From positions 1 through 33,695 of the IMG/VR virus record IMGVR_UViG_3300045921_000156: DNA of 33,695 nt. The stretch is one strand, 5' to 3'. The translations under genes and the position numbers were made by a program. Below are positions 9,946 through 25,966 of the stretch, one piece after another. The DNA is from a virus. Position 1 is the stretch's first letter; each line of letters starts with the position of its first letter. The notes beneath the pieces were generated by a model that saw only the letters and a list, made by a program, of their open reading frames with translations, searched no databases and had not been told where the DNA came from.

Positions 9946-9952
9946 AGTTTTG

Positions 9953-11379: not shown

Positions 11380-11393
11380 AATGTTTAAACATT
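11380..11393. repeat. 14-bp palindrome AATGTTTAAACATT
   Basis: Perfect palindrome overlapping the stop codon of the 66-residue gene. The same core occurs in the intergenic elements upstream of several early genes (see 20281-20306), so it could be a related regulatory site in front of the 128-residue gene. Confidence 0.5.
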
Positions 11394-11585: not shown

Positions 11586-13386
11586 TTAAAAAATTATAAT
11601 TATTTGTTAATACTGCTTGTTTTGGCTGTAATAAGTTCCCTAACACATCTGCTCCATTAAAGTAATAACGCCTTGACTGCTTTATGTATTCAAATAAAAC
11701 AACGCCTTTTTTCCCAACTGTTTTTTGCCTTCTAATTTTCTTTGTGTGCAACTCGCAAGCTGTGTCTTGAGGGTTAAGTTGATGGTTTGGTCTATGGTAA
11801 ACTAAAATGTTATCCATCTTATTATTCCACATTGCTCCATCGGCAATATCAAATACATCAGGGCAAGGGTAGTTGCCATCGGCATCTTTACGCATCATCT
11901 TTGGGTGTGCAACAATTAAGAAGTACACATTATTGACTTGTGCAAAGCGAACGCAATCTGCTAAAAATGCTTCTAAATATTTATCCGTTCTTCCATTCTT
12001 AGCATTGTAATCATTAGCCATTTGGTTGAATGGGTCTATAATGCAACCGCTTATTTTCTCTTTAATTACAAGCTCTAAAAATCGTTCTTTAATGTAATCA
12101 GGAGTAGGTGCTATATCTTTTGGGTAAACATAGAAAAAATGTTTACTAATATAATCGTATGCACTTTCGTAAACTTCCCTGCTTGGTCTTCGTGGGTTTG
12201 AAGGTGTGCAATCCGCACCTAAGTAAATTTCTACTAAGTCATGGTAGAACTCTTGTGCAGGGTTATCCTCTGGAGCGAATAAAGCAAATTTTTCACCGTG
12301 AATAACAGCACGTATAAGCAAGTACCACTTCATAAATGTTGATTTCCCATAGTTGCCAATACCTGTAAGCAATGAAATTTCACCACGCTTCATTTTGTAG
12401 TGGCTATCTAATTCATAAATACCTACTCCAGCAACGCTTTCGTAGCCATCAGTATAAATTTTAATTGCCTCACTCTTAACGTCCTCGCCAAAAATTACAT
12501 CCTTTGGTTTTATTTCAGGGTTAAAAATATCAGCATCAAATTCTACTTCATGTTTTGTTTTTTTATCAATAAGTTTTTCACCTTCAAAAACAGCAGTAGC
12601 AAAGGCACTTGTTAATTTGTAAGCACTCTTAACAACTCTACTTAATTCGCTTTCGCTGAATGAATTGTCATTTATTAAAAATTCATTCTTACACAACGAA
12701 AAACAGTCATCTTGAGGTATTCCGAAGCGGTTACAAGCAGATGCCAACTTAAACAAAAATAAATTTCGCTCACCTAAAACAAAGGCATCGCCCTTATTTG
12801 TAAGCCATTTAAGCAAATTTTGAAAAATATCATAGTAATCTGTTTTAACTTCTTTAACCTTTAATTTTTGCGTTTTAACAAATTGCGTAAACACCTCTGC
12901 ATTTTCGTTGATATAAATATTTTCATCCCAGCTTTCATAGCAAACACGACTAACGTTTATTCCTGACTTGTCAATATCTTTAAAGTGTTTCTGCAACGCT
13001 TCAAAATGTTCTCTATGTTTAGTTTTATCAGCAATTTTAACTAAAGCCTTTAAGCCGTTACCGCTTGGGCTTACCCAACAAGCAAAAATGAACTTGTCTT
13101 GCTTTAATTCTTCTTTACGCTTATTTACATCGCTTAATTTGTCGAAGTCAAGGCAGATGAAGCCTGAATGTTCAATTAAACCTTCATCAGTACGCTGCGA
13201 GAATTTACCGCTAAAGCATACGCCCGGTAAGTTTGATTTTAGTTTATTGGCTCTTTCCTTGTCAAGTTGATTTCTAATTTCCAGCACTTTTTCTTTTGAT
13301 TTGCCGTGCTTAATCCTGTTAAGTGCTTGAGCTACTGTTATATAGTGTGGCTCTTGCGAAAAAATGTTTTTAAAAATTGTTACCAC
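11557..13386 (-). CDS. Primase/helicase: VirE_N (BT4734-like) domain fused to RecA-like helicase, 609 aa
   Basis: Probable replicative primase-helicase. The N-terminal 160 residues match the VirE_N/BT4734-like type: YITVAQALNRIKHGKSKEKV, LPGVCFSGKFSQRTDEG, and HSGFICLDFDKL (residues 73-84), then SPSGNGLKALV. The C-terminal domain is RecA-like: Walker A GIGNYGKST (342-350), APEDNPAQEF, Walker B GCIIDPFNQM (447-456) and LIVAHPKMMRK, as in Twinkle/DnaB-type helicases. Translation starts at GTG (13386) after an A-rich leader; no upstream in-frame ATG is present. It lies 148 bases after the initiator gene. Unwinding plus priming at the nearby origin candidate is the inferred role. Confidence 0.85.
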   Translation of the reverse strand: MVTIFKNIFSQEPHYITVAQALNRIKHGKSKEKVLEIRNQLDKERANKLKSNLPGVCFSGKFSQRTDEGLIEHSGFICLDFDKLSDVNKRKEELKQDKFIFACWVSPSGNGLKALVKIADKTKHREHFEALQKHFKDIDKSGINVSRVCYESWDENIYINENAEVFTQFVKTQKLKVKEVKTDYYDIFQNLLKWLTNKGDAFVLGERNLFLFKLASACNRFGIPQDDCFSLCKNEFLINDNSFSESELSRVVKSAYKLTSAFATAVFEGEKLIDKKTKHEVEFDADIFNPEIKPKDVIFGEDVKSEAIKIYTDGYESVAGVGIYELDSHYKMKRGEISLLTGIGNYGKSTFMKWYLLIRAVIHGEKFALFAPEDNPAQEFYHDLVEIYLGADCTPSNPRRPSREVYESAYDYISKHFFYVYPKDIAPTPDYIKERFLELVIKEKISGCIIDPFNQMANDYNAKNGRTDKYLEAFLADCVRFAQVNNVYFLIVAHPKMMRKDADGNYPCPDVFDIADGAMWNNKMDNILVYHRPNHQLNPQDTACELHTKKIRRQKTVGKKGVVLFEYIKQSRRYYFNGADVLGNLLQPKQAVLTNNYNFLNEEQDDLPY

Positions 13387-14461: not shown

Positions 14462-14475
14462 AATGGTAAAATTAA

Positions 14476-14585
14476 AAGCCTTTAACGTTCGAGGCTGGGA
14501 GCGTACGCAGGCAATCGTACACCTCTACTAATTAAAGGCTTGTATCTTTAATATTTTTTTTGCCTATTTTTAAAAAATTGCTCCC
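14476..14585 (-). ncRNA. Structured 5' leader RNA of the replication operon, pseudoknot-capable
   Basis: Starting from the promoter just upstream, the transcript begins near GGGAGC (14585-14580). A 10-bp stem pairs 14476-14485 with 14532-14541. Inside it, GAGG/CCTC (14491-14494 with 14522-14525) and a 5-bp hairpin GTACG/CGTAC (14503-14507 with 14516-14520) enclose an 8-nt loop. The loop (14509-14514) is complementary to 14560-14565 in the 5' part, and 14497-14502 is complementary to 14580-14585. These two six-base pairings are nested and would form a pseudoknot or an alternative fold. A GC-rich island in AT-rich DNA supports selection. It could be a riboswitch-like leader, a small RNA, or a DNA structure of the origin. 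Confidence 0.5.
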
Positions 14586-14589
14586 GTTG

Positions 14590-14621
14590 CAAATTTACAA
14601 AATTACTTCTTCTTCCGCAAA
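14590..14621 (-). promoter_or_regulatory. Bacteroidota-type promoter of the replication operon
   Basis: Minus strand: TTTG (14621-14618), 20-base spacer, TAAATTTG (14597-14590), an exact match to the TTTG/TAnnTTTG pattern. The -7 element lies just after the stop of the upstream gene, while the -33 element is inside it. Unlike the two early promoters it lacks the TGTAAA-N6-TTTACA inverted repeat, so it may be expressed constitutively. Confidence 0.75.
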
Positions 14622-14848
14622 TTCTTTATCCAAAAACGCTTGTACCTATTGCCATTCTTGTCTGTTACCCACTCGTCTGCAATAGTGTATTTTTCTTTAA
14701 TTGGACGAAACAAAACATGGTGGTTCATACTGCCAACCCCTGTTCTTTTCTTTGTTTCTTTGTAAATTGATGAAGCAGTTACTATTTCTCCTCTTAGTAA
14801 CATTTCTTCTAAAACTTGCGTTTGCGTTAGTTTTCGTTTTGTTTTCAT
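14603..14848 (-). CDS. Winged-helix-like DNA-binding protein, 81 aa
   Basis: Starts with AAATAACT-ATG. The sequence LTQTQVLEEMLLRGEIVTAS followed by SIYKETKKRTGVGSM resembles the helix-turn-helix part of small phage winged-helix proteins (HTH_55-like), and the C-terminus GNRYKRFWIKN looks like a closing beta strand. Strongly basic. Last gene of early module 2, directly before the replication promoter. DNA-binding is inferred from the fold-like pattern and charge. Confidence 0.5.
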   Translation of the reverse strand: MKTKRKLTQTQVLEEMLLRGEIVTASSIYKETKKRTGVGSMNHHVLFRPIKEKYTIADEWVTDKNGNRYKRFWIKNLRKKK

Positions 14849-14875
14849 AGTTATTTATATTTATTGGTTAAACAT
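14849..14875 (-). promoter_or_regulatory. Recurrent intergenic element before the winged-helix gene
   Basis: After the upstream stop codon comes ATGTTTAACCAATAA (a 4-codon frame ending in TAA) and, 27 bases from its first base, the gene start preceded by AAATAACT. It is one of at least seven related elements (see 22900-22926). Confidence 0.5.
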
Positions 14876-14878
14876 TGA

Positions 14879-15106
14879 TTATTTATTATTTCTATTATTT
14901 TTTGATAACATTTCTTCAATCATCTTGCAATTACGCTCAAATTCTTCTATTGGCATTTCGGCAATTTCTTTTCCTAATTTATAAATTTCAGAATCTTCAT
15001 CATCTAATGGGTCTATAAACAAATCTGATATTTGCCGTGTTGCTTCATTAATTGTTAATTTTCCTTCAGAAAAATTTAATAGTATTTCACTAATTTTTTC
15101 CTTCAT
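14879..15106 (-). CDS. Small acidic hypothetical protein, 75 aa
   Basis: Unrecognised. Helical and acidic (KISEILLNFSEGKLTINEAT, DPLDDEDSEIYKLG, EEFERNCKMIEEML). Flanked on both sides by copies of the recurrent intergenic element, with start context AATAATT-ATG. Confidence 0.5.
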   Translation of the reverse strand: MKEKISEILLNFSEGKLTINEATRQISDLFIDPLDDEDSEIYKLGKEIAEMPIEEFERNCKMIEEMLSKNNRNNK

Positions 15107-15129
15107 AATTATTTTTATTGTTTAAACAT
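15107..15129 (-). promoter_or_regulatory. Recurrent intergenic element before the 75-aa gene
   Basis: ATGTTTAAACAATAA (mini-frame M-F-K-Q-stop) lies 23 bases before the gene start and two bases after the upstream stop codon; it contains the palindromic core GTTTAAAC. Confidence 0.5.
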
Positions 15130-15132
15130 TAA

Positions 15133-15348
15133 TTATCTATCTATACAAGGACAAATCTTTAAAACACGTTGTTTAAAGTTGTCATTCTCGTAGGTTAATA
15201 GCTTCCTGTATTTATCGCTGCAACTCTTTAATTGCTGCATAGCTATTTTTAGTTTAAGCTCTTCAAATTTACGTTTCTTAAGCTCTTTATGCTGAATTAC
15301 AGCAAACATAGCAGTTATTAGCCAAAGTGCGAATAGTATGTGTTTCAT
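15133..15348 (-). CDS. Small membrane-anchored coiled-coil protein, 71 aa
   Basis: The first 19 residues (MKHILFALWLITAMFAVIQ) form one hydrophobic membrane segment; the remainder is a charged helix (HKELKKRKFEELKLKIAMQQ) ending in a Cys-x-Cys (ICPCIDR). This is an N-in, C-out or signal-anchor topology. It resembles inner-membrane spanin subunits in outline but sits among early genes, away from the lysis cluster, so no function is assigned. Start context TTTAAAACT-ATG. Confidence 0.5.
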   Translation of the reverse strand: MKHILFALWLITAMFAVIQHKELKKRKFEELKLKIAMQQLKSCSDKYRKLLTYENDNFKQRVLKICPCIDR

Positions 15349-15396
15349 AGTTTTAAATTCTTAATAGTTGTTTTTATATTTGAGTTATGCGTAACC

Positions 15397-15852
15397 CTAA
15401 AAAAGCTCTGTAGCAAGACCAGAATTTATAAGACCGAACACATCAAAATGGTTCTTAAAGAAAAAATCCATCATTTTATAATTGAATTGACCATGCCCAT
15501 CGCAAATAAAATATTGTCGGCTTGAATAACCTGAATGATAAATATAATCTCGTTTATCGCTATCTCCATTATGTTTACCATACCAAAAACCAAAACTATC
15601 ATTTTCTGACTTCCCACAAAGTTGATAATATAATTCTTTTGTAAGTTTTGAAAATGGTTTTAATATTGGTTTTATTTCGGCTAAGTTTTTAGCGTTGCCC
15701 CATCCAATGTTTACCATTTTTAAGCCTATATCAATTGATTTTAATTCATAAATATTAGGCTCTTTACTTTCGGAGTCACTTTCTATTAAAAATTTTAATC
15801 TGTAAGGTAAATAAGGTACTATATGTTTTACTTCTAATTCCATTGTTTTCAT
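15397..15852 (-). CDS. Conserved-type hypothetical protein, 151 aa
   Basis: Contains VKHIVPYLPYRLKFLIES, then KPILKPFSKLTKELYYQL, a pattern I associate with uncharacterised proteins common in Bacteroidota phages and mobile elements. The C-terminal half is aromatic-rich (GFWYGKHNGD, GYSSRQYFICDGHGQF). No catalytic motif is obvious. Two possible ATGs lie three codons apart; the first has the CTAAAACT-ATG context used by neighbouring genes. Confidence 0.6.
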   Translation of the reverse strand: MKTMELEVKHIVPYLPYRLKFLIESDSESKEPNIYELKSIDIGLKMVNIGWGNAKNLAEIKPILKPFSKLTKELYYQLCGKSENDSFGFWYGKHNGDSDKRDYIYHSGYSSRQYFICDGHGQFNYKMMDFFFKNHFDVFGLINSGLATELF

Positions 15853-15889
15853 AGTTTTAGAATTGTTAATAGTTGCGTCTATATTTGAG

Positions 15890-15988
15890 TTATAATAAAG
15901 ACAATAATATAATTGCTAATATCATTCCAGCCAAAAGGCTTAGTAAATCGAGCAAAGCAAGCTCCTTTGAGTTTCTTCTGAATTTCAT
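15890..15988 (-). CDS. Very small membrane protein, 32 aa
   Basis: ATG overlaps the stop of the 94-residue gene (ATGA, 15988-15985). The product starts MKFRRNSKELALLDLLS and continues LLAGMILAIILLSLL: a basic N-terminus and one hydrophobic segment of about 20 residues, the typical design of a single-pass mini membrane protein. Translational coupling and the membrane segment support that it is real; function unknown. Confidence 0.45.
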   Translation of the reverse strand: MKFRRNSKELALLDLLSLLAGMILAIILLSLL

Positions 15989-16269
15989 AATCTAACCCCC
16001 TTTGTATAGCTATAATAATTAATTATTCTACCTTCGTTATCAATTTTGTTATAATGCCATTCAATAATTAATCCCTTAGGCTGTTTTGAATTAATATCTA
16101 AAACGATGTCTTGAAAGTTAAAATAAAATTCACCGCAAATTGCAATCCCACCTATATTTTCAGCTACCCAGCCGTTAAATTCAAGGTCTTGTTTTTTGCA
16201 AAATACATTAATGTATTTGCTACAAATTAATTCATACTCTTTTTTTAATTCTTTTATTTTCTTATCCAT
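15985..16269 (-). CDS. Hypothetical protein, 94 aa
   Basis: Unrecognised. A charged N-terminal helix (KKIKELKKEYELICSKYINVF) precedes a beta-rich part (GWVAENIGGIAICGEFYFNFQDIVLDI, split here as two strands around Gly). It overlaps the upstream gene by eight bases and couples to the 32-residue membrane protein downstream. Confidence 0.55.
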   Translation of the reverse strand: MDKKIKELKKEYELICSKYINVFCKKQDLEFNGWVAENIGGIAICGEFYFNFQDIVLDINSKQPKGLIIEWHYNKIDNEGRIINYYSYTKGVRL

Positions 16270-16642
16270 AGTTAAATATTTTATTTAAAAGTTCAAGGTA
16301 TTGCTTATGATATTTGTTAGTAATTTCAATAAACTTATCCCAATTCTTTAATATTGTGGCAGCATGTATTACCTTCCAATAGTTTGATTCATCTGTTTGA
16401 TTAATCAAACTTCCTGTTGAAATATTTATTCCAGCATCTACTATGTCTAATTTATTATTTGTTATTAAATATACATTTATAACTTTATTCTTAAACTCAA
16501 ATGCAATTCTATCGGTAAACATATAGCAAGTCAAGTATTGATGAAGTTCAAAATTATTGCTTCTTAATTCATCAATGTATTCATTTTCAATTTTTTTAAT
16601 TGCTTCTTCTCTGCCTTTTGCTGTTTTTAAATTTGTTTCCAT
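16262..16642 (-). CDS. Hypothetical protein, 126 aa
   Basis: Unrecognised alpha/beta protein beginning METNLKTAKGREEAIKKIEN, with a middle beta region (FEFKNKVINVYLITNNKLD) and a C-terminal helical region (HAATILKNWDKFIEITNKY). It lies 20 bases below the RNA ligase gene and shares the AAACT-ATG start context of the early block. Confidence 0.55.
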   Translation of the reverse strand: METNLKTAKGREEAIKKIENEYIDELRSNNFELHQYLTCYMFTDRIAFEFKNKVINVYLITNNKLDIVDAGINISTGSLINQTDESNYWKVIHAATILKNWDKFIEITNKYHKQYLELLNKIFNYG

Positions 16643-16661
16643 AGTTTATTGTTTTAATTTA

Positions 16662-17366
16662 TTAAACTTCGTGCCAATTCCAAATAATTTGACCATTATT
16701 GTTTTCTGGAAAATATTTTCCATCAATTTTAGAATGCTTAACATATTTTGCAAGAAAATCAACTTTACCATTTCTTTCAACTCTATATATAACACCTTCA
16801 ACCTCATCGACTGCTCCGTGTCCGGATACTTCTATTTTCTTTAATGCTTTTTCAAAAAGAAGAGGCTGTCCAATGTGAATAAGATTAGGAATAACATAAC
16901 CTAATGGCAAAACTCTTAGTAAAAAGTTATGATATGTAAGTCTTTCATTTTCTTTTGTGAACAAATCAAAAACAACGAAAGGCTCGTGATTAAGTTTATA
17001 AATAGTCCCATGAGCCTGTGCAAGCCATTCTCCACATACTCTTTCATTTTCATTTAATAATTTATCAAATCTTTTTTCATTTGCTTTCACCCATTTTGAA
17101 AATAAATGGTGCTGCTCATACGGCGATGTATAAGCCAAGTATCCGCTTCTTACAAGTGGTAATATTTGACCGTTTAATTTTGCAACGCAACAGTTTGAAC
17201 CGTCAAGTTTTTCTTGAACAATTATCAAATCATTTTCATCTCTTGCCTTCTTTGTCGCAATTAATGCTTGTCCTATTTCAATGTGGTGGTCTCCATAGCC
17301 TAACCTACTGTTAGGTAGGTGTGGTATTGAGCCGTATGCTTTATGTCCAAGTGGTTTTTTGTTCAT
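16662..17366 (-). CDS. RNA ligase (Rnl2-like nucleotidyltransferase), 234 aa
   Basis: Seals RNA nicks or ends using ATP through a lysine-AMP intermediate. Motif I is EKLDGSN (residues 52-58) with K53 as the likely adenylated lysine; GEW (112-114) and FVVFDLF (130-136) fit motifs III/IIIa; EGVIYRV (190-196) is motif IV; FLAKYVKHSK (204-213) is motif V with K207 and K210. The catalytic domain is complete, but the protein has little beyond it, so a C-terminal specificity domain is small or absent. No polynucleotide kinase gene and no tRNA gene was seen in this genome. Repair of cleaved host RNA is a plausible, unproven role. Confidence 0.85.
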   Translation of the reverse strand: MNKKPLGHKAYGSIPHLPNSRLGYGDHHIEIGQALIATKKARDENDLIIVQEKLDGSNCCVAKLNGQILPLVRSGYLAYTSPYEQHHLFSKWVKANEKRFDKLLNENERVCGEWLAQAHGTIYKLNHEPFVVFDLFTKENERLTYHNFLLRVLPLGYVIPNLIHIGQPLLFEKALKKIEVSGHGAVDEVEGVIYRVERNGKVDFLAKYVKHSKIDGKYFPENNNGQIIWNWHEV

Positions 17367-17390
17367 TTTTTCAGTTTTAATTTTCTTCCA

Positions 17391-18053
17391 TTATTTGTTC
17401 TTCTGACTTAACAAAAAATCTATTGTATCAATTAGTTTTGTTACATCAACACCGTTATATACAACTTTAAAAATTTCAACGTAACCATACATTATTCCTA
17501 CTCTCTCATCAGGAGGCACATAATAATAATGGCATTTAAGCTCTAAATCGTCAATGGTAACTGTTGTTATTTTCGTTTTCACAGTTTTGTTATTTTTAAA
17601 TGAATAAATATATTTATAAACATTTCGTATATTTTCATTATTTAGATATTTAATCAAAAACATTACATTGTCATAGTCAGGTTTTAAGGACAAATAGAAA
17701 TTAATCATTTCATTTGTTTGAGCAAACTTGCAGGATGTAAGCAAAAGACACACATCTTTATAATCAGGTTTTAAAGAAATATAGAAATCTAACATATCCT
17801 CTTCTGTTAACAATGCCTCAGATATTACTAAACTTACATCTGTATAATGAGGCTTTAAGAATTTAAAATACTCAAGTATCTCAAAACTTCTTGCTTTCCA
17901 GCAATTTATAATAAACCATGCTAAGTCGCTTGGGTTATTGCCCCTCTTCCTTATTTCCTCAATAATGTCAAATTCACCTATTAAATCTTTATATTCGTAA
18001 GGCAAATCTTTTTTTACATCATATTTCCTAATAATTAATCTTGGTGTTTTCAT
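17391..18053 (-). CDS. Helical 29-residue-repeat protein (large paralogue), 220 aa
   Basis: N-terminus MKTPRLIIRKYDVKKDLPYE and FDIIEEIRKRGNNPSDLAWF match the start of the 128-residue paralogue at 19894-20280. About three repeats of 28-29 residues follow, with consensus C-x-x-A-x-T-x-E-M-x-x-F-x-x-S-L-x-P-D-Y-x-x-V-x-x-L-I (for example KFAQTNEMINFYLSLKPDYD). Then comes a C-terminal non-repeat extension with a beta-like region (VKTKITTVTIDDLELKCHYYY). The repeats look like paired helices forming a solenoid, suited to binding a partner protein. Partner unknown. Confidence 0.6.
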   Translation of the reverse strand: MKTPRLIIRKYDVKKDLPYEYKDLIGEFDIIEEIRKRGNNPSDLAWFIINCWKARSFEILEYFKFLKPHYTDVSLVISEALLTEEDMLDFYISLKPDYKDVCLLLTSCKFAQTNEMINFYLSLKPDYDNVMFLIKYLNNENIRNVYKYIYSFKNNKTVKTKITTVTIDDLELKCHYYYVPPDERVGIMYGYVEIFKVVYNGVDVTKLIDTIDFLLSQKNK

Positions 18054-18058
18054 AGTTT

Positions 18059-18547
18059 TTAAATTATAATTTTAATTATTTCTCCTTCTGAAGTCGATTT
18101 TGTTTTTAATTTTCCATCTTCCATTTCTAAATTAAATACATCAGGTAATTCTTCGTGTTTTAATAATTTTATTATTTTATTTTCAAGCTCTAAAGTATAT
18201 TTTACTCTATCTAAACCTAATAAAAATGCTTGGCAAATAGCTTCTCTAACTTGATTTTCTGTATATATTTTACTTTTTGCCATAAATTTAATTACAGGGA
18301 TAGATTTATCGATAAATTTAGTCGATGCTATGATATAGGCAACTTCACCATTTGATAAATTAATAAATAAATTATTTAATATAACATTATATTTAAAATC
18401 ATAGTAATAATTAGATTTTAATCTATTAGATTTATCAACAACCATACAATAATCATCTACTTTAATAGGCTTTAAACTATCCGATATTTTACCATTTACA
18501 GATACCGCTGTAAATATGTGTTCTTTTGGTATTTCTATTGTTTTCAT
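18059..18547 (-). CDS. Hypothetical protein, 162 aa
   Basis: Not recognised. It begins MKTIEIPKEHIFTAVSVNGK; the centre is beta-rich, and a segment TENQVREAICQAFLLGLDRV forms a helix before an acidic-to-basic C-terminus. Start ATG is preceded by ATGTTAAAACG, a weaker variant of the recurrent element, whose short frame overlaps this start. Neighbours are the HEXXH protein (upstream) and the large repeat protein (downstream). Confidence 0.55.
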   Translation of the reverse strand: MKTIEIPKEHIFTAVSVNGKISDSLKPIKVDDYCMVVDKSNRLKSNYYYDFKYNVILNNLFINLSNGEVAYIIASTKFIDKSIPVIKFMAKSKIYTENQVREAICQAFLLGLDRVKYTLELENKIIKLLKHEELPDVFNLEMEDGKLKTKSTSEGEIIKIII

Positions 18548-18551
18548 CGTT

Positions 18552-19067
18552 TTAACATTTAATTATCTTAACTTCAAGTGGCTCTACTTTATAAGTATTA
18601 ATTCCCAATCCGCTTACATAAACCCTACTTCCTTCCCATTCCATAAAATCAATATTGCAAAATTCCTTTACTTCCTGCTCAATGGTTTCCAAGTTTAATT
18701 TACGGCAGTAGCCTTTAGCAATGTTCATTATGATATACCTTCTTGCTCTTTCTTTATAAAGGGTACAATCAAAGCCAAGCAATCCGGCTTGTTCAATGGC
18801 AAACATTTCAACGATAAATTCAGATTTGTAAAGTTTCATGCTTTTTTTGGACGCACCTTTTACAATATGACCAATTTCGTGCATTGCAACACAAAATCTG
18901 TCAATGTTTGTTGGGTGTGGGATTTTAACTTCTTTCTCTTTTACCCATGCCCTTCCGCAAGATGTTGAACTCCATTTGACAACCCTTATATTATGCTTCT
19001 TGAGCAATTTTCGCAAATGTTCTTCTGCTTTTAATTTATCAAATTTATTATTTTGATTTGTTTTCAT
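18552..19067 (-). CDS. Zinc metalloprotease-like protein (ImmA/IrrE-type HEXXH), 171 aa
   Basis: Residues 55-70 read IDRFCVAMHEIGHIVKG, containing HEIGH (63-67), a zinc-dependent HEXXH motif; E87 in EFIVEMFAIEQAG may be the third ligand. This arrangement recalls ImmA/IrrE-like proteases, some of which cleave repressors. No N-terminal HTH is visible. It is the first gene after the operator-bearing promoter at 19096-19127, which would suit a role in switching early transcription. Substrate unknown; cleavage of a repressor is speculation. It could also act as an anti-defence or host-takeover protease. Confidence 0.65.
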   Translation of the reverse strand: MKTNQNNKFDKLKAEEHLRKLLKKHNIRVVKWSSTSCGRAWVKEKEVKIPHPTNIDRFCVAMHEIGHIVKGASKKSMKLYKSEFIVEMFAIEQAGLLGFDCTLYKERARRYIIMNIAKGYCRKLNLETIEQEVKEFCNIDFMEWEGSRVYVSGLGINTYKVEPLEVKIIKC

Positions 19068-19092
19068 GATTTATAGTTTTAAAGTTAAACCT
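19068..19092 (-). promoter_or_regulatory. Recurrent intergenic element (variant) before the metalloprotease gene
   Basis: GTTTAACTTTAAAACT precedes the start by about 25 bases. It aligns with the other elements except that the initial ATG is AGG, so it has no mini-frame; the shared core is GTTTAA(A/C)C followed by TTTAAAACT. Confidence 0.45.
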
Positions 19093-19095
19093 CTG

Positions 19096-19127
19096 CAAAT
19101 GTAAATAATATTTTACATATATGCAAA
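19096..19127 (-). promoter_or_regulatory. Early promoter 1 with overlapping operator
   Basis: Minus strand TTTG (19127-19124), 20-base spacer, TACATTTG (19103-19096), a perfect Bacteroidota-type promoter. The inverted repeat TGTAAA-N6-TTTACA (19100-19117) lies in the spacer and overlaps the -7 element, so a repressor bound there would block transcription. It is nearly identical to the promoter at 22945-22976. Confidence 0.8.
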
Positions 19128-19133
19128 TTATTT

Positions 19134-19448
19134 TTAAAAAAATTCTACTTCTATAAATTCAAACCCCTTCTTTACTATTATTTTTTCAAGGCATAACCTG
19201 TAAATTTCTCTGTCATTAAACTTATATTTTTTCTGCAATATATCAAGTAGTGGTTTTACGCAATTATCTATATCGCTCATTTTGTTTGAAAAGCCAAATT
19301 TAATATTTAAACATAAATTCCCTTGCTGCAATTTTAAAGGCTTTAGCATTAGCAACATTTCTTTTTCATACGCTAAATACTTCTTTGTTTTAAACCTTCT
19401 ACCCTGCCAGCATTCGTTGACTGACAGGGGTTTTATGTTTAGTCGCAT
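19134..19448 (-). CDS. rusA: Holliday junction resolvase RusA-like
   Basis: RusA family nuclease that cuts four-way DNA junctions. The 104-residue protein shows PLSVNECWQGRRFKTKKYLA at the N-terminus, then SDIDNCVKPLLDILQ with acidic D59, D61 and Lys65, and KYKFNDREI with D79. These correspond to the catalytic acidic residues and lysine of the family. Length is close to the usual 110-140. It overlaps the small HTH gene by ten bases. A hairpin-forming sequence with nine possible pairs, one a G-U, lies in its 5' codons (19408-19437). Together with the Rad52-like gene it forms a recombination/resolution set. Confidence 0.88.
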   Translation of the reverse strand: MRLNIKPLSVNECWQGRRFKTKKYLAYEKEMLLMLKPLKLQQGNLCLNIKFGFSNKMSDIDNCVKPLLDILQKKYKFNDREIYRLCLEKIIVKKGFEFIEVEFF

Positions 19449-19636
19449 AGGTCGAAGCTTTTTAACACATACAATTCTCTTTCGGTGAATTTATGAACTT
19501 TTCCACGAAAATAAAGGTTTAGTTTCATTCTACTCCAACCAAGATAGCCGCATAACTCATCTTGAGTTAAACCTTGCTGCATCAGCTTTATAGCTTTTGG
19601 GTGCTTGTGATTTTTCTTTACTAATCCTGCTTCCAT
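19439..19636 (-). CDS. Small HTH DNA-binding protein (Cro-like size), 65 aa
   Basis: HPKAIKLMQQGLTQDELCGY followed by LGWSRMKLNLYFRGK reads as a helix-turn-helix: a Gln-Gly turn after LMQQ, then a recognition helix with Trp-Ser-Arg. The rest is basic and short. It is a candidate regulator of the phage's own operator-bearing promoters, but this is inference. It is embedded between the 81-residue gene (one base gap) and RusA (ten-base overlap). Confidence 0.6.
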   Translation of the reverse strand: MEAGLVKKNHKHPKAIKLMQQGLTQDELCGYLGWSRMKLNLYFRGKVHKFTERELYVLKSFDLCD

Positions 19637-19637
19637 A

Positions 19638-19883
19638 TTAACAATTAATTTTACTTAAATCATACAATTCTACATTTACTTCTTCATCTAGCTTAACATC
19701 TTTAGGCTCTCTTTTTCTTAGCTCTCTCCTTAGGGCTTCAAGCATTGCGCGCATCTTGTTTGCATCGTGCAAAAAATCCTCTTTATCTCGCTTTGTTGGT
19801 CTTTTAACCAATTTAGGAAAGCAGGATTCTATTTCTTCAATACGCTGCTTTATCAACTCTTTGATAATGTTTTTTGTTTTCAT
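19638..19883 (-). CDS. Small charged hypothetical protein, 81 aa
   Basis: Unrecognised, highly charged alpha-helical protein (NIIKELIKQRIEEIESCF, LHDANKMRAMLEALRREL, KREPKDVKLDEEVN). Start context AAAAAAACT-ATG. Located directly upstream of the small HTH gene. Confidence 0.5.
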   Translation of the reverse strand: MKTKNIIKELIKQRIEEIESCFPKLVKRPTKRDKEDFLHDANKMRAMLEALRRELRKREPKDVKLDEEVNVELYDLSKINC

Positions 19884-19893
19884 AGTTTTTTTG

Positions 19894-20280
19894 TTACCTT
19901 AAAGATTTAAGGTATTTTTGCATTTCATGGGTATTGGCAAATTCGCAATTTCTAATTAACCACCTTACCTCATCACAACTTGGGTTTAGTGATATAAAGC
20001 ATTCCAACATCTCGTTGGTTTGGGCAAATTCGCAATCTCTAATTAACTCACTCACATCATCATAATCTGGATTTAGCGATATAAAGTAATTAAGCATTTC
20101 TTGTGTCTGTGCTTTAGGACAGTAAGTAATTAACCATTTTAAATCAGCTATTTTATTTCTCTTATATCCTCTCTTTCTAATTTCCTCAATAGCATCAAAT
20201 TCTTCGGGTAAATCATTGTAAGCTTCGCAAGGGGTTATTAATAAATCAGATTTTTTTATAATTAATTTTGGCTGTTTCAT
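19894..20280 (-). CDS. Helical 29-residue-repeat protein (short paralogue), 128 aa
   Basis: Shares its N-terminal pattern (PKLIIKKSDL, then EEFDAIEEIRKRG) and repeat consensus with the 220-residue gene at 17391. Two near-exact 29-residue repeats are visible: CPKAQTQEMLNYFISLNPDY plus DDVSELIRD, and CEFAQTNEMLECFISLNPSC plus DEVRWLIRN, followed by a partial third. The two copies in one small phage genome indicate duplication with divergence. Likely a helical solenoid with a protein partner; function unknown. Confidence 0.65.
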   Translation of the reverse strand: MKQPKLIIKKSDLLITPCEAYNDLPEEFDAIEEIRKRGYKRNKIADLKWLITYCPKAQTQEMLNYFISLNPDYDDVSELIRDCEFAQTNEMLECFISLNPSCDEVRWLIRNCEFANTHEMQKYLKSLR

Positions 20281-20306
20281 TGTTTTTAGTTTTAATGTTT
20301 AAACAT
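20281..20306 (-). promoter_or_regulatory. Recurrent intergenic element with 18-bp palindrome
   Basis: Contains TTAATGTTTAAACATTAA (palindrome 20292-20309) and mini-frame M-F-K-H-stop, placed 26 bases before the start of the 128-residue gene and two bases after the upstream stop codon. Best symmetric example of the element family. Confidence 0.55.
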
Positions 20307-20309
20307 TAA

Positions 20310-20543
20310 TTAAAAAGGTAAGTCATCGTCTTTTTGTTCATATTTCCCTTTATTATCAGCCTTTTTAAATGGCTCTGAAAATTGCAAGCTCAAATATTTA
20401 TTTCCATTCTTTGCCTCTTTAACCCAAGCTGCGACTTCTTTCTGTATACCATCAACTACGCATATATCTTTATATTCAGGCGCTTTTTCATTTCCTTTTT
20501 TGTCGTTCTTAAATAACGCTCCGCTGTTGTTTTTCTGTTCCAT
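20310..20543 (-). CDS. Small SSB-like protein with acidic C-terminal tip, 77 aa
   Basis: Begins MEQKNNSGALFKNDKKGNEK, a start shared with many phage-encoded small DNA-associated proteins. The centre has VAAWVKEAKNGNKYLSLQFS, an OB-like strand pattern, and the end is DDDLPF, the same kind of acidic tip by which bacterial SSB recruits repair proteins. At 77 residues it is much shorter than a full SSB. It sits with the Rad52-like and RusA genes, so a role in recombination is likely. OB fold not demonstrated. Confidence 0.55.
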   Translation of the reverse strand: MEQKNNSGALFKNDKKGNEKAPEYKDICVVDGIQKEVAAWVKEAKNGNKYLSLQFSEPFKKADNKGKYEQKDDDLPF

Positions 20544-20610
20544 GTTTATTTGTTTTTAATTGTTTATTTATAATACTATTGTCAGGTTTATCCTTATTTT
20601 ATTACTATGT

Positions 20611-20982
20611 TTAATTGTTTAAATTAATTTGTTTATATTCTTCTTTAAGATAACTAATAATGCTACGCAAGCTCTCTATTGTATAGTGAAGCTCTTTGTT
20701 TAACTTCTCGCAGTAATTCATGTTAAAGTATTCATCTGTCAACTCGCCACCTGCTATTATCTTTAACTTAGTTATGTTTACATTCGGATATTTGTCGCAC
20801 AACTCAGCGAATTTCTTATTGTATATCTGCTCGGTAGTTGCGCACAATTCAGCAGATAAACCAAGCATATTAGCTGCATCATTTAGTCGTTCTATTACAT
20901 CTGCAGGCACACTTACATCTACTTTTTTCTTTAAAAAATCCTCAATATATTGAATTGCAGAATTTATCTCAAGTACATTCAT
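20611..20982 (-). CDS. Hypothetical helical protein, 123 aa
   Basis: Unrecognised. Mostly helical (NSAIQYIEDFLKKKVDVSVP, ERLNDAANMLGLSAELCATT, CEKLNKELHYTIESLRSIIS). It follows the 142-residue recombination-associated gene by 12 bases and precedes the SSB-like gene; an accessory recombination role is possible by position only. Downstream, 67 A/T-rich bases (20544-20610) have no gene. Confidence 0.5.
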   Translation of the reverse strand: MNVLEINSAIQYIEDFLKKKVDVSVPADVIERLNDAANMLGLSAELCATTEQIYNKKFAELCDKYPNVNITKLKIIAGGELTDEYFNMNYCEKLNKELHYTIESLRSIISYLKEEYKQINLNN

Positions 20983-20994
20983 AGCTATGTTGTT

Positions 20995-21423
20995 TTAATA
21001 AGTTAACACTATTTGGTCTTTGCCTTCTGTAAATGACACTTTAGGCACTTCTACTCCTTCGCTGTCAAAGATAGGTTCTTTTGTTTTAAAAGCTAAATCG
21101 AGTAGCTCTTTACGTGATTTTAGCTTTCTTTCCATTTCAGCATATACAGGGTCTTCGCTGTAATTTAATTTTTTCCCACCTCCACGAATGGCAATTAAAA
21201 CGCCATTGAATTTATCAAGTGTAACATTTCCGTACACTTTATTCTTAATAGTTTCAAAGTATTTGCTTGCGAAGTCGTATAGCTTCTTTGCATTGGTAAG
21301 TAAATCTTCATTAGATACGTTACCGCTATCAATTAAAGATAGTGCCACTTGTTCTGCTGTTGTTTCAACTTCTTTTTTAGTTGATACAGCTTTAAATTCG
21401 CTTTGAAATTTAGTTATTTCCAT
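20995..21423 (-). CDS. Conserved-type phage protein next to Rad52-like gene, 142 aa
   Basis: No named family. N-terminal helix-rich half (KEVETTAEQVALSLIDSGNV, LLTNAKKLYDFASKYFETIK) and a C-terminal half with LIAIRGGGKKLNYSEDPVYA, EMERKLKSRKELLDLAF and strand-like ends (VSFTEGKDQIVLTY). Proteins of this kind appear beside Rad52-like or RecT-like annealases in phages, so I infer a partner or accessory role. It follows the annealase gene with a recurrent intergenic element in between. Confidence 0.5.
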   Translation of the reverse strand: MEITKFQSEFKAVSTKKEVETTAEQVALSLIDSGNVSNEDLLTNAKKLYDFASKYFETIKNKVYGNVTLDKFNGVLIAIRGGGKKLNYSEDPVYAEMERKLKSRKELLDLAFKTKEPIFDSEGVEVPKVSFTEGKDQIVLTY

Positions 21424-21449
21424 AGTTTTTATTTTTATTATTTAAACAT
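21424..21449 (-). promoter_or_regulatory. Recurrent intergenic element before the 142-aa gene
   Basis: ATGTTTAAATAA (mini-frame M-F-K-stop) starts 26 bases before the gene and a few bases after the annealase stop; ends AATAAAAACT-ATG. Confidence 0.5.
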
Positions 21450-21452
21450 TGA

Positions 21453-21941
21453 TTATTTCTTTTCTTCAATAACATACAACTCTCTATCTAATTTCCCTTC
21501 GTTAAATGCTTTTACAAAGTTATAAAGCCTTTCTTTTGCCCATGTGGGTATAAATTTCTCATTTGTTGCAATCATGACTTTAGGGTAATTATAAAGCTCC
21601 CTACCCATGCCAAATTGCACAGCTACACGCTTCATGCTGTCAGAAATACCCCCCTTTATAGGCTCTATATTCGTGTTTGAAGCTCCATCCGACTTACTAA
21701 CCACCTTATCCCCTATTCGTGCCGTTATCGTGCATATAAAGCCTTCATTTATTGGTTGAAATTCGTTGCTCCAATTCTCCCAGCCAAATGCTTTGTCGAG
21801 CCTCTCCATTACACATCGGTTATTAATGTAAGGTACAACTATTAGTTTAGCTTTATCACTTGTTTGCGACTGCACACGCCATTCAACATCATCAGGCGAT
21901 AGCGGTGCTGTAAGAATTTCTCTAATTTTTTCTGTTTCCAT
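21453..21941 (-). CDS. Rad52-like single-strand annealing protein, 162 aa
   Basis: Homologous-recombination annealase (Rad52/Sak-type family). Signatures: LTAPLSPDDVEWRVQSQTSD, AKLIVVPYINNRCVMERLDK, FGWENWSNEFQPI, ICTITARIGDKVVSKSDGAS and GGISDSMKRVAVQFGMGREL. The pattern Pro-x-x-Val-x-Trp-Arg, then Arg-Leu-Asp-x-x-Phe-Gly-x-x-Asn-Trp, then Asp-Gly-Ala-Ser, then Lys-Arg-Ala-Val/Ile-x-x-Phe-Gly-x-Gly-Arg-x-Leu-Tyr is diagnostic of the family. Length is typical of phage versions. It likely repairs and recombines phage DNA together with the SSB-like, RusA and exonuclease proteins. Confidence 0.88.
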   Translation of the reverse strand: METEKIREILTAPLSPDDVEWRVQSQTSDKAKLIVVPYINNRCVMERLDKAFGWENWSNEFQPINEGFICTITARIGDKVVSKSDGASNTNIEPIKGGISDSMKRVAVQFGMGRELYNYPKVMIATNEKFIPTWAKERLYNFVKAFNEGKLDRELYVIEEKK

Positions 21942-21988
21942 AGTTTTTTATTTTATTTATATTTATCCTTATCATTCATTCTTATAAT

Positions 21989-22120
21989 TTATATCCAAAT
22001 AATAAATAGGATAATTGTTATAAAGAATATACAAACAGTTGGCTTTGCTTCATTATCTACATTAAAGTAGTTTATTGTGAATAAAATTGCGCTTAAAATC
22101 AATATTATATATCTGTACAT
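21989..22120 (-). CDS. Small two-segment membrane protein, 43 aa
   Basis: Start AATAAAAACT-ATG (22120), same leader as neighbours. The product has two hydrophobic segments (MYRYIILILSAILFTINYF and CIFFITIILFIIWI) joined by a short polar loop. It fills a gap otherwise left between the annealase and the 66-residue gene, and its start context argues for translation. Function unknown. Confidence 0.5.
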   Translation of the reverse strand: MYRYIILILSAILFTINYFNVDNEAKPTVCIFFITIILFIIWI

Positions 22121-22138
22121 AGTTTTTATTTTTAAAGT

Positions 22139-22339
22139 TTAATAATTTTGAGCTATTAATTCTCTTGTTGAGAAATCAATAACAAATGATACATTCTTGC
22201 TTCTGCACTCTTTAACTAACTCGTCAAAGTCGCTTCCTCCAAGCATATAGCCTGTTATCTTATAAATTTCTTTCCCAAATTCTTCTTTATCGAATTTTAG
22301 CCAATATCTTGGCTCTATTAATTTGCCTGTTGCTTCCAT
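22139..22339 (-). CDS. Small hypothetical protein, 66 aa
   Basis: Unrecognised (MEATGKLIEPRYWLKFDKEE, then FGKEIYKITGYMLGGSDF and a basic end). Start context CTAAAAACT-ATG identical in kind to the other early genes. Located between the 78-residue gene and the mini membrane protein. Confidence 0.5.
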   Translation of the reverse strand: MEATGKLIEPRYWLKFDKEEFGKEIYKITGYMLGGSDFDELVKECRSKNVSFVIDFSTRELIAQNY

Positions 22340-22358
22340 AGTTTTTAGTTTTTTTTAA

Positions 22359-22595
22359 TTAATACCACACTTTAGTTGTTTTGGGAGTGCCATTATCAAA
22401 TGATTTTATTGACTTATAACTATCTATTTGGCTACATTTTATATCATATTTGTAAAAGTAATTTCTGCCATATTTTTTAATACCTGCATTGTAAGTTAAT
22501 GTACATTTTCTTCTATTCATAGCATCTTTTTTATTATTACTAATTAAGCTAATGTACCCTGATGCGTTGTCAAATTCTGTTAATACGTAAATCAT
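22359..22595 (-). CDS. Small hypothetical protein, 78 aa
   Basis: Unrecognised; basic, Lys/Tyr-rich (RRKCTLTYNAGIKKYGRNYF, KYDIKCSQIDSYKSIKSF). A strand-like N-terminus MIYVLTEFDNASGYISLI suggests an alpha/beta fold. Start preceded by TTTAAAACT and a recurrent element. Confidence 0.5.
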   Translation of the reverse strand: MIYVLTEFDNASGYISLISNNKKDAMNRRKCTLTYNAGIKKYGRNYFYKYDIKCSQIDSYKSIKSFDNGTPKTTKVWY

Positions 22596-22621
22596 AGTTT
22601 TAAATTTTAAAGGTTAAACAT
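22596..22621 (-). promoter_or_regulatory. Recurrent intergenic element before the 78-aa gene
   Basis: ATGTTTAACCTTTAA (mini-frame M-F-N-L-stop) starts 26 bases before the gene, just after the upstream stop (TAG plus five bases). Confidence 0.5.
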
Positions 22622-22626
22622 GATGG

Positions 22627-22899
22627 CTATATATTAATACGATAAGAACCTGATTCATAAACCAATGTTCCGTCCCATTGGTTATATATATCCTTAATTA
22701 AGTCTTTATTATAGTGGTCTTCACAAGCAGAGTCGCCACCCCAAACTACATCACCACCATAATTTCCTTTTAAACAGATAGAATAATACCCTGAAGAGTA
22801 ATCAAATATTTGAAAATCATTCTTAAATACCTTAATAACATCTCCACGATAAGTGGTTGTATCTTCTAATCTAATTTTTCTTAATTTTAAAGTTTCCAT
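22627..22899 (-). CDS. Hypothetical protein, 90 aa (first gene of early module 1)
   Basis: Unrecognised. Beta-rich with Gly/Tyr/Trp in the middle (FDYSSGYYSICLKGNYGGDV, VWGGDSACEDHYNKDL, QWDGTLVYESGSYRI). It is the first gene downstream of the operator-bearing promoter, so it should be produced early. Early-position small proteins in phages often act on the host, but no such evidence is seen here. Confidence 0.55.
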   Translation of the reverse strand: METLKLRKIRLEDTTTYRGDVIKVFKNDFQIFDYSSGYYSICLKGNYGGDVVWGGDSACEDHYNKDLIKDIYNQWDGTLVYESGSYRINI

Positions 22900-22926
22900 A
22901 GTTTTTAAGTTTTAAAGATTAAACAT
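22900..22926 (-). promoter_or_regulatory. Recurrent intergenic element before the first early gene
   Basis: ATGTTTAATCTTTAA (mini-frame M-F-N-L-stop) starts 27 bases before the start codon; the leader ends TTAAAAACT-ATG. It lies within the 5' untranslated region of the 22945-22976 promoter, showing that the element is not itself that promoter. Confidence 0.55.
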
Positions 22927-22944
22927 TTAATTAATTTGACACTG

Positions 22945-22976
22945 CAAATGTAAAATAATTTTTACATATAAGTCAA
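22945..22976 (-). promoter_or_regulatory. Early promoter 2 with overlapping operator
   Basis: Minus strand TTG (22976-22974), 21-base spacer, TACATTTG (22952-22945). An inverted repeat TGTAAA-N6-TTTACA (22949-22966) overlaps the -7 element. The downstream GCAG and the spacer sequence match promoter 1 closely. The 146-base gap 22900-23045 contains nothing else but A/T runs. Confidence 0.8.
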
Positions 22977-23765: not shown

Positions 23766-23984
23766 TTATTTTTGTTGTTTTCTTAATTCTATCAATTCTA
23801 ATTCAAAGTGCAAGTGGTCAATCGCCTTTCTTATGTCTTGCTCCGCTGAGTTACCCTCTTTCTTTCCAGCACGCAACAAATAACACACGGCACTTCCTAA
23901 ATTATAACTTAACTCAAAGTCATGGCACACATCTTTTGCCTTAATTCCTTTATACTTTCCAATATAATACTTTGGTGTACTCAT
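23766..23984 (-). CDS. DUF3310-like protein, 72 aa
   Basis: Starting at the internal ATG MSTPKYYIGKYKGIKAKDVC, the protein shows FELSYNLGSAVCYLLRAGKK and QDIRKAIDHLHFELELIEL, the DUF3310 pattern (Tyr-x-x-Gly...Ala-x-x-Tyr-x-x-Arg-x-Gly-Lys, then Asp-x-x-Lys-Ala-x-x-x-Leu). This start overlaps the exonuclease stop as ATGA, so I prefer it to the longer frame at 24062. The family is widespread in phages and sometimes called nucleotide-kinase-like; its function is not established. Confidence 0.7.
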   Translation of the reverse strand: MSTPKYYIGKYKGIKAKDVCHDFELSYNLGSAVCYLLRAGKKEGNSAEQDIRKAIDHLHFELELIELRKQQK

Positions 23985-24982
23985 TTTGCAATACTTATTA
24001 ATAAGTTTCTTTTCTTTTTCAATGCTGTAACACCAACTCTGCTTCTGCTTAAACTTCCGCAATCACCACACCTCAACTCTAAGTATTGATTTGCTTGCGT
24101 TGTATAACACTTACCTGTTTCGCTTAAATTCTTACTCCCACACGTTGGGCAAGCCCTTATGTTATCATCAATATGCAAGCCAACATTTGGGTGCGAGGTT
24201 ATCCAATTTCTAATTCTTAAATAAGTTTCTTCGAGTATCTTAACATCGTTAATATTATACTTCAACATTCTATCTAAAGCCTTTTTATCGCCATTTATAC
24301 ACGCTTCCCATAATTCAAAATCGCTGCTTTCATTCTTCCTGTCAAGTCCTAATATTTTATTTACATAATCTAATTTGTTTGAAGTAAAGCCAAAATGTTT
24401 GCGTACCTGTTCTAATGTGTCAATTACTTGGTAATAGCTTGGTTTTGGCAAACCATGCAAAACAAACTTAGTGTTCAATTTCTTTATATCAAACTTTTTT
24501 GCGTTATGAGCAATAACAATATCAGCCTCATCAATTAATTGCCATATAGCCTTTGTTATGCGCTTGTCGTCCCTTTTTTTGCACTCATTTGGGACGAGTA
24601 TCGCTGAATAAACTTTATTATCAAATAACCACTTTGCACTCCAGCATAATAGTGTCCAATCCTTTTTTATCTGATTTATCCCGATATTTTGCTGCCAAAT
24701 TCCCCACGTATATGATTCTATTGGCAACGTTTCAATGTCAATGATTAATATCTTAGCTGTGTGCGGTATTGCAGACGTGCGACTTTCTCTATTTTTATTT
24801 CCCATCAATCCCAAATAGTACCTAACTAAAGCTCTTACTGTTTCAACGCTTTTACCTTTAAACTCTTTCTTGTATTTTCGCTTTAATTGAATTGCAAATT
24901 CAGTTTTGTTCAATGTTGCAACATTAACCTTGTTTAGTTCTTCTAAAATTATTACTTGCTTAGGGCTTGGAGTTCTACCCAT
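23981..24982 (-). CDS. DEDDy 3'-5' exonuclease with C-terminal zinc ribbon, 333 aa
   Basis: RNase H-like exonuclease fold: ILIIDIETLP with D82 and E84 (Exo I), IVIAHNAKKFD with D165 (Exo II), and YNINDV with Y242 and D246 (Exo III, DEDDy type). The N-terminal 65 residues are basic and helical, possibly a DNA-binding HTH (SPKQVIILEELNKVNVATLN, KGKSVETVRALVRYY). The C-terminus has two Cys-x2-Cys pairs (C278/C281 and C305/C308), a zinc ribbon. This three-part arrangement is compact. It lies within the lysis gene region, apart from the recombination genes. Roles in proofreading, end-processing or host DNA breakdown are all possible. Confidence 0.75.
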   Translation of the reverse strand: MGRTPSPKQVIILEELNKVNVATLNKTEFAIQLKRKYKKEFKGKSVETVRALVRYYLGLMGNKNRESRTSAIPHTAKILIIDIETLPIESYTWGIWQQNIGINQIKKDWTLLCWSAKWLFDNKVYSAILVPNECKKRDDKRITKAIWQLIDEADIVIAHNAKKFDIKKLNTKFVLHGLPKPSYYQVIDTLEQVRKHFGFTSNKLDYVNKILGLDRKNESSDFELWEACINGDKKALDRMLKYNINDVKILEETYLRIRNWITSHPNVGLHIDDNIRACPTCGSKNLSETGKCYTTQANQYLELRCGDCGSLSRSRVGVTALKKKRNLLISIAK

Positions 24983-24996
24983 ATTTTGTTTTTTAT

Positions 24997-25257
24997 TTAT
25001 TCGCTTTCTTTATCTTTGTTCTTCTCTACCATGATAGTATTATAGCCAGCGTAAACAAAGAAAGTACCGCTAATTGCTAAAACATCGGTCAAAGATAATG
25101 ATTTATTTTTAATTGAATAATAAATATAAATTAAAGAAATTGCTATTGCTAAGTTAAATAATACAAATCGCTCTAAACGCTTGGAAGAAAAAAAGCTCTT
25201 TTGACTGCTAAATGTTTTAAGAAATTCTTTTAATAAAAATAATATATGTGCTTTCAT
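24997..25257 (-). CDS. Small two-segment membrane protein, holin-like, 86 aa
   Basis: The ATG at 25257-25255 (MKAHILFLLKEF) overlaps the endolysin stop (ATGA). The product has two hydrophobic helices (FVLFNLAIAISLIYIYYSI and LTDVLAISGTFFVYAGYN) and a charged C-terminus. A longer reading from 25383 would overlap the endolysin by 130 bases and is not preferred. Position next to the endolysin suggests a holin or antiholin role; the 81-residue protein upstream is a second candidate. Confidence 0.6.
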   Translation of the reverse strand: MKAHILFLLKEFLKTFSSQKSFFSSKRLERFVLFNLAIAISLIYIYYSIKNKSLSLTDVLAISGTFFVYAGYNTIMVEKNKDKESE

Positions 25258-25724: not shown

Positions 25725-25966
25725 TTCCCTGTAATTCTTTTAATAAATTCAACAACTTGCTTTATGCTTTCATATACCATTTTAAATGCTTTACCTGCAT
25801 TAATAAGTATTACAAGCGATAAAGAAAATAGTGTCAATAGCTTAAAATAAGCCTCGTAATTATTAATTAAATGTGAAGCCATGTTGGTAATAAAGCTGGT
25901 AGCAATCAATAGCAAACTTGCTGCTAATGTTTTTAAATCAGAAACGTCATTGTGAAATTGTGCCAT
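25721..25966 (-). CDS. Holin-like membrane protein, 81 aa
   Basis: Two hydrophobic segments (LKTLAASLLLIATSFITNMA and YFKLLTLFSLSLVILINAG) with a polar N-terminus and a Lys/Glu-rich C-terminus, the general design of class II holins. The gene overlaps the preceding one by 20 bases and the M15 endolysin by four. Holin families are too diverse for a firm call by eye, but the lysis context supports it. Confidence 0.6.
   Translation of the reverse strand: MAQFHNDVSDLKTLAASLLLIATSFITNMASHLINNYEAYFKLLTLFSLSLVILINAGKAFKMVYESIKQVVEFIKRITGK

Follow-up and report, generated by a model that had tools for sequence, protein, structure and literature searches.

The subject of this analysis is a short element that recurs between the early genes of a phage in the viral record IMGVR_UViG_3300045921_000156; the whole stretch analysed, positions 1 to 33,695, is called the window. 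The record (33.7 kb) has its genes on the minus strand, and all genes next to copies of the element likewise lie on that strand. The element is considered to be a two-box translation-initiation leader that was copied as an intercistronic linker in the phage lineage, and the probability of this reading is put at about 0.6. The leader would serve ribosomes that dispense with Shine-Dalgarno pairing. An upstream TTTAAYC box (more generally TAAC), at about -24 to -17, would stand in register with the start codon, and a downstream A-rich TTAAAA box, at about -16 to -11, would be followed by A-6 and A-3 (AAAACT-ATG). The phage copies keep the distances from box to start codon and from box to box, and so do other Bacteroidota phages and the leaders of unrelated bacterial genes. 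The host of the window phage would itself belong to the Bacteroidota, because of the relatives of its primase and exonuclease and its TAnnTTTG promoters.

The repeat in this phage is genuine. ATGTTTAA is present in six gaps, after positions 14848, 15106, 20280, 21423, 22595 and 22899, and its ATG is 27, 23, 26, 26, 26 and 27 nucleotides (nt) away from the real start, respectively. An earlier note on this DNA had described six gaps with a recurrent element 23-27 nt before the start, and this was confirmed, together with a mini-frame closed by TAA in every copy. The first copy (14849-14881, before gene 14603-14848; MFNQ) runs from the upstream TAA stop through the base preceding the start, with TTTAA at -24 and TAAA at -15. 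The second (15107-15135, before 14879-15106; MFKQ) has TTTAA at -20 and TAAA at -11. The third (20281-20312, before 19894-20280; MFKH) contains an 18-base-pair (bp) palindrome at 20292-20309. The remaining three are at 21424-21455 (before 20995-21423; MFK), at 22596-22627 (before 22359-22595; MFNL, no TAATYA ahead) and at 22900-22932 (before 22627-22899; MFNL, a TACATTTG -7 box upstream). TAAA begins at -15, -11, -14, -14, -14 and -15 in the six copies, and the spacing from TTTAA to TAAA is 9 in all of them; the 23-nt copy has both boxes displaced jointly, by 3 nt. A-3 and A-6 are found at all six real starts, and the Shine-Dalgarno words GGAG, GAGG and AGGA occur in none of the six leaders. 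In four of the six copies, the stop codon of the upstream gene forms the first bases of the repeat (TAATYAATGTTTAA). Over the first 22 nt, pairs of copies have a mean identity of 0.77, compared with 0.39 for 21 other starts.

Versions without the ATG are also observed on the minus strand. A copy with AGG instead of ATG, noticed earlier as a seventh member, is present at 19068-19092 before 18552-19067, directly behind a TACATTTG -7 box; the six ATG copies and this one precede different early genes. An AAG version (AAGTTTAAT...TAAA; 16643-16669) lies before 16262-16642 and overlaps the end of the upstream gene. The two-box leader at 9946-9970 before 9682-9945 (gaaTTTAA) has TTTAA at -25 and TAAA at -15, followed by ACT and then ATG. 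A further version, TTAAACTTTAAA...ACT (TTAAAC; 22121-22142), precedes an open reading frame (ORF) of 43 residues at 21989-22120.

The unusual thing about the word is its position, not its count. ATGTTTAA occurs 12 times on both strands of the window versus 6.5 expected, and 4 of 100 shuffles reach 12, so that it is mildly over-represented. It is located 20-30 nt upstream of 6 of the 33 early-region starts, where 3000 simulations gave a mean of 0.07 and a maximum of 2. Counted as a word, it is found in 7 of 58 upstream stretches (0.30 expected).

Two palindromes had been pointed out in the earlier note, and both are present: the 18-bp one mentioned above and a 14-bp one, AATGTTTAAACATT, at 11380-11393 (no strand). 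The latter lies between genes, ahead of 10953-11339, whose start is some 50 nt away, and lacks the leader spacing. They might mean that the element is an operator, in which the palindromic AATGTTTAAACATT is bound by a phage repressor; the antisense orientation of a copy in a sister phage, described below, would agree with such a DNA-binding site. However, palindromy is not shared among the copies, five of the six not being perfect palindromes. Palindromes are nothing peculiar to the leader, because the AT-rich window has many of them: 11 perfect 14-bp palindromes (simulated mean 4.1, maximum 9 in 60 simulations) and two of 18 bp (simulated mean 0.43). A better candidate for such a site is the 18-bp palindrome TGTAAA-N6-TTTACA, which is exact in both TACATTTG promoters and mismatch-free nowhere else in the window. 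Its two occurrences, at 19100-19117 and 22949-22966, lie between -33 and -7 of these promoters and are likely to be operators of an early-gene repressor. An operator role for the leader element is therefore most improbable.

Copies in relatives were compared as well. The sister contig L110/L002 shows about 86% identity across 24002-33695 of the window, continuing into 3-1420. L110 bridges window positions 1 and 33695 with about 124 nt in between, and since it spans both ends, the record probably represents a circularly permuted genome that is nearly complete. L110 is the sole close relative, and the early region is absent from its contig. It carries a 39-bp leader copy in antisense, behind a late gene, with the mini-frame MFNH. 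At the same site the window has a less complete remnant, AACCTATTAAACTATAAAACTATGAAAAC (29339-29367, plus strand), at the 3' end of the late gene 29373-29888, and the mini-frame ATG is absent from it. One copy each was found in the viral contig L085 (MFNL) and in Flavobacterium phage FpV9, where it is downstream of a TACATTTG box. The full repeat is absent in the phage relatives found via scans with the exonuclease, the Rad52-like protein and the primase-helicase, and a scan with the RNA ligase for relatives of the early region gave none that was confirmed. Exact searches of viral contigs for the element plus start gave 79 stretches, mostly chance matches or C-termini of upstream genes, and another such search gave three. 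Riemerella phages RAP44 and GRNRAP2, flagged by blastn, have no leader copy among the annotated starts examined, which were part of each set, and a crAssphage blastn match is located inside gp75 and is not a leader.

These copies bear on the question whether the repeat is a recombination linker and nothing else: intergenic homology for the shuffling of early genes, whose role in expression would be that of any A-rich leader. The copies fill the interval between stop codon and start codon and resemble one another far more than other leaders do, and the antisense copy behind the L110 late gene has its counterpart, a remnant, at the corresponding place in the window. The core spacing is, however, also kept before single genes of unrelated bacteria, where shuffling is irrelevant. 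As the whole explanation this is very unlikely. It is compatible with the two-box leader and does not exclude it: the phage seems to have copied the leader in full, stop codon through start codon.

The core of the element was then sought before bacterial genes. Bacterial genomes were scanned for ATGTTTAAHCWWTAAA with ACTATG behind it, and 80 of the 81 stretches obtained were listed. The distance between the two ATGs was 26-28 nt in 59 of these 80 (the range permitted was 22-34), and when homologues were merged by eye, about 44 groups remained, 27 of them at 26-28 nt. About 70 of the 80 listed matches are, by their titles, from what we take to be Bacteroidota, the grouping of genera being our assumption and two titles being unclear. 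Since many of the 81 stretches are homologous to one another, further tests were made. Across 395 Flavobacteriales genomes, 70 sites had TGTTTAAYCWWTAAA with any ATG no more than 30 nt behind it, and the span from the start of the pattern to the end of the ATG was 26-30 nt in 48 of them (about 24-28 nt when measured to the start codon from the base that precedes TG). A control in which TTTAA was changed to AATTT showed a flat span, with 21 of 141 at 26-30 nt among the matches listed (Fisher p 1e-14 for 48/70 versus 21/141, the sites not being fully independent). The control pattern was commoner overall than the core, which means that the signal is one of place and not of abundance. Sixty of the 70 sites were read with their flanks; 23 without a readable ORF were set aside, and in 35 of the remaining 37 the core TGTTTAAYC-WWTAAA is 22-29 nt from the start. 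The genes behind the core sites presumably include HSP20, SSB, HPF, HU and an integrase, as judged from their N-terminal sequences.

A scan for the core in viral contigs gave a peak at 26 nt, with 17 of 41 clustered sites; these 41 remained from the 80 of 120 stretches that were listed, after removal of duplicates, of internal ATGs and of sites that had no ORF. Lack of conservation in relatives, which the earlier note had named as a ground for refutation, applies only in part: phage relatives identified by their proteins are without the full repeat, but the core recurs across Bacteroidota before unrelated genes.

Starts that had not been selected by the motif were also examined. Phage loci gathered by protein similarity provided 4766 starts, which were clustered to 614. 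In this set TAAC peaks at -22 (36 versus 10.5 expected), TTAAC at -23 (19 versus 2.7), and the composite TAAC-N2-5-TAAA at -23 (12 versus 0.4). The composite at -24 to -21 is likewise in excess in two Flavobacteriales genomes (G522, 8 versus 0.67; G284, 9 versus 0.53) and in one of the Bacteroidales (G203, 5 versus 0.13), and there are no occurrences in 177 starts of G583, a genome of the Bacillota that uses Shine-Dalgarno pairing. G583 has a pronounced peak of purine words at -13 (192 versus 9.9), which G522 and G284 lack. The TAAC excess is more than upstream stop codons, because TAAC is the top-enriched TAAN word at gene starts, words with TAG and TGA are not enriched, and TAAC closes a long upstream frame in 9 of 58 cases in two Flavobacteriales genomes. 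When matches were removed, the 395 genes of the matched loci contained four sites at -30 to -26, a sample too small to be read further.

The ATG inside the leader could be taken as the start of a mini-ORF. A ribosome would restart at this AUG behind the upstream stop, make three or four residues and restart at the real start, the stop of the mini-frame falling 8-14 nt ahead of it. The in-frame TAA at codon 4 or 5 in all six copies would fit, as would the position of the AUG 3 nt past the upstream stop in four of the six and the same form in the L110 and L085 copies; the TAA, however, doubles as part of the A box. The AUG is not kept elsewhere. The base before TG is A in 13 of 35 Flavobacteriales sites (T 10, C 6, G 6) and in 14 of 40 viral sites (T 22, G 3, C 1), and TG precedes 2 of the 12 composites in the clustered phage starts. 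From these base counts, the ATG lies outside what is conserved in the core. It was kept in three of six box-bearing mscL orthologues, and AGG, AAG and TTAAAC versions occur within the same gene cluster of the window. Moreover, the register of the mini-frame to the main frame varies (23, 26 and 27 nt), the mini-AUG has U-3 in five of six copies, which is an unfavourable base according to PMC6847099, and Bacteroidetes have an under-representation of AUG between -21 and -1. Reinitiation is thus quite unlikely, and the mini-ORF, and the ATG with it, would most likely be incidental.

The recurrence recorded in the earlier note therefore holds, and its guess that the element acts at the level of mRNA or translation, independently of a promoter, would hold as well; its reinitiation, operator and RNA-processing options fared worse. 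The last of these finds no stable structure in the leaders (0 to -3.4 kcal/mol), and no Rfam covariance model matched the window at the gathering threshold. The beginning of the element at the upstream stop, the relatives without ATG, the antisense copy in L110 and the core at bacterial gene starts had escaped that note.

Another explanation is that TTTAAYC is the initial transcribed sequence of Bacteroidota promoters, serving promoter escape or stability of the 5' end. The box is placed where transcripts commonly begin: the median 5' untranslated region is 24 nt in F. psychrophilum (PMC9723704), and the most common one is 23 nt in B. theta (PMC7366714). A TAnnTTTG box is found just upstream in mscL leaders, in the copies at 19068 and 22900 and in FpV9. 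However, none is present within 60 nt at the five intercistronic copies of the window. The gap between promoter box and element varies (3 and 18 nt in the window, 11 nt in FpV9, about 5 nt in mscL), whereas the distance to the start is constant, and in two genomes a -7 box upstream goes with no higher frequency of TAAC (9/58 versus 93/600). This explanation, taken alone, seems unlikely.

Several results nevertheless weigh against the two-box leader. Part of the signal could be promoter-linked, because the upstream box matches these common transcription starts, TTTGC promoter words also peak near -24, and the -7 box is fused with the TTTAA box in several viral matches. The upstream box may not act alone, since the TAAC excess is weak in starts without TAAA (p 0.32, 0.020, 0.009 and 0.048 in four sets). 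In the 614 clustered phage starts, TTTAAYC as an exact word shows no significant enrichment (maximum 3). The starts used are first-ATG calls. Phylum-wide, in 198 genomes, counts of TTTAACC...AACTATG were not above a reversed control; the upstream box without the TAAA box does not stand out there. Among mscL orthologues (46 of 119 genomes, 30 loci read) the upstream box was found in six. In about 10 of the 35 genomic sites, TTTAA may provide the stop of the upstream gene, and sites in related genomes are not independent of one another. By eye, and outside the count, several further mscL loci appear to have TTAACC near -21.

The leader was compared with known systems. According to Baez et al. 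2019 (PMC6847099), translation in F. johnsoniae is raised by A-3, A-6 and A-12/A-13 and U-3 is disfavoured; Bacteroidetes avoid AUG between -21 and -1, and the A-rich stretch may be a binding site of bS1. AT enrichment at -12/-13 is on record as well (Accetto and Avgustin 2011, PMC3155529), and Nakagawa et al. 2017 (PMC5397173) give base biases only, for several phyla including Bacteroidetes: U around -25, C and A around -15. The window copies resemble this Kozak-like region in lacking Shine-Dalgarno words, in A-3 and A-6 and in being A-rich from -14 to -11, and they fit the avoidance of AUG, as the extra AUG at -23 to -27 is just outside -21 to -1. They differ in the TTTAAYC/TAAC box at about -23 and the fixed two-box spacing, which are not described in the available portions of PMC6847099 and PMC3155529. 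No description of the upstream box was found in the literature covered, most subscription journals being outside that coverage.

Nearest in layout is the start-associated sequence (SAS) of cluster K mycobacteriophages, whose own function is presumed to be translational (Pope et al. 2011, PMC3203893). Both are short asymmetric phage sequences before many unrelated genes, sometimes including the upstream stop, with rare reverse copies. The SAS is a GC-rich 13-bp sequence, GGGATAGGAGCCC, 3-9 bp from the start, whose conservation reaches past a canonical ribosome-binding site and which is rare in the host, whereas the window leader is AT-rich, is 20-27 nt away and has a core that recurs in genes of the host phylum. 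TAACTGA direct repeats (Beggiatoaceae, cyanobacteria and five Bacteroidetes; PMC4679880) share a TAAC motif near starts without Shine-Dalgarno sequences, and ribosomal protein S1 is among the readers proposed for them; in contrast, they are tandem heptamer arrays of other sequence and spacing in few genomes. Halovirus HF2 (PMC8707807) also has families of short intergenic repeats, but it is an archaeal virus, and its repeats are 29-58 bp and have promoter activity, whereas the window copies mostly have no promoter box.

As to how the two-box leader might work, being single-stranded it would assist docking of the 30S subunit. For the A box this would probably involve ribosomal protein bS1, in line with proposals by others; the upstream box might be an additional contact or a standby stretch. 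The downstream half is an ordinary, strong Bacteroidota initiation region of a kind already known; the upstream half is a box that holds its place before genes in Bacteroidota and their phages. The leader may raise translation, and the upstream box may matter by itself. It is possible, and is offered tentatively, that UUUAAYC/UAAC near -21 and the A box at -13 form a two-part ribosome docking site that replaces the Shine-Dalgarno sequence in a subset of mRNAs.

Among the genes of the window, those for an exonuclease (23981-24982), a Rad52/Erf-like annealing protein (21453-21941), an SSB-like protein (20310-20543) and a primase-helicase (11557-13386) were named via Pfam and PHROGs, and the portal gene (27485-28714) in the same way, under the Pfam cut-off. 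Gene 19894-20280 contains a tandem duplication, 19921-19999 and 20008-20086, 80% identical, and by eye gene 17391-18053 appears to contain a motif resembling it. At 14462-14560 on the minus strand, a GC-richer intergenic sequence gives a long hairpin when folded, with -25 kcal/mol and z -3.6, a stability that none of 200 shuffles reached; ARAGORN found no tRNA and Rfam gave no match there, and a small RNA or a terminator is possible. A second leader family of about 40 nt is found at 15349-15390 and 15853-15895, before genes 15133-15348 and 15397-15852, and reads by eye ACTCAAATATA..CAACTATTAA.AATT.TAAAACT-ATG.

Other repeated leaders were noticed elsewhere. In the Flavobacteriales loci L323, L325, L337 and about 15 more, the leader TGTTTAAYCATTAAA(A)GACGACAA-TATG is nearly unchanged, and the MRTSSTFS... 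family behind it is one that we take to be integrase-like. In seven phage loci (L547, L557, L569, L585, L591, L602 and L611), a gene family (MENVNQQEQ... and variants) has a common leader in which the promoter box TATATTTG continues directly into TTTAAACTTTAAA, so that promoter and two-box leader are fused. CGTACTTTGT is found four times upstream of starts in L052, and ACTATATT four times, in L210, L220, L222 and L239; these words look like repeated promoters.

Bacteroidota ribosomes choose start codons without Shine-Dalgarno pairing, and the cues known for this are low structure, a stretch rich in A, and A at -3 and -6. A further box that keeps a fixed distance, in phages and in hosts, would be a concrete and cheap target for mutation. 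The near-identical copies from stop to start would be a ready-made intercistronic linker copied between early genes. If the two-part docking site is real, the phage has stamped near-optimal copies of it between its early genes, which would load many small genes efficiently from one transcript. The phage leader is also a candidate for use as a strong expression part in Bacteroidota of gut and soil.

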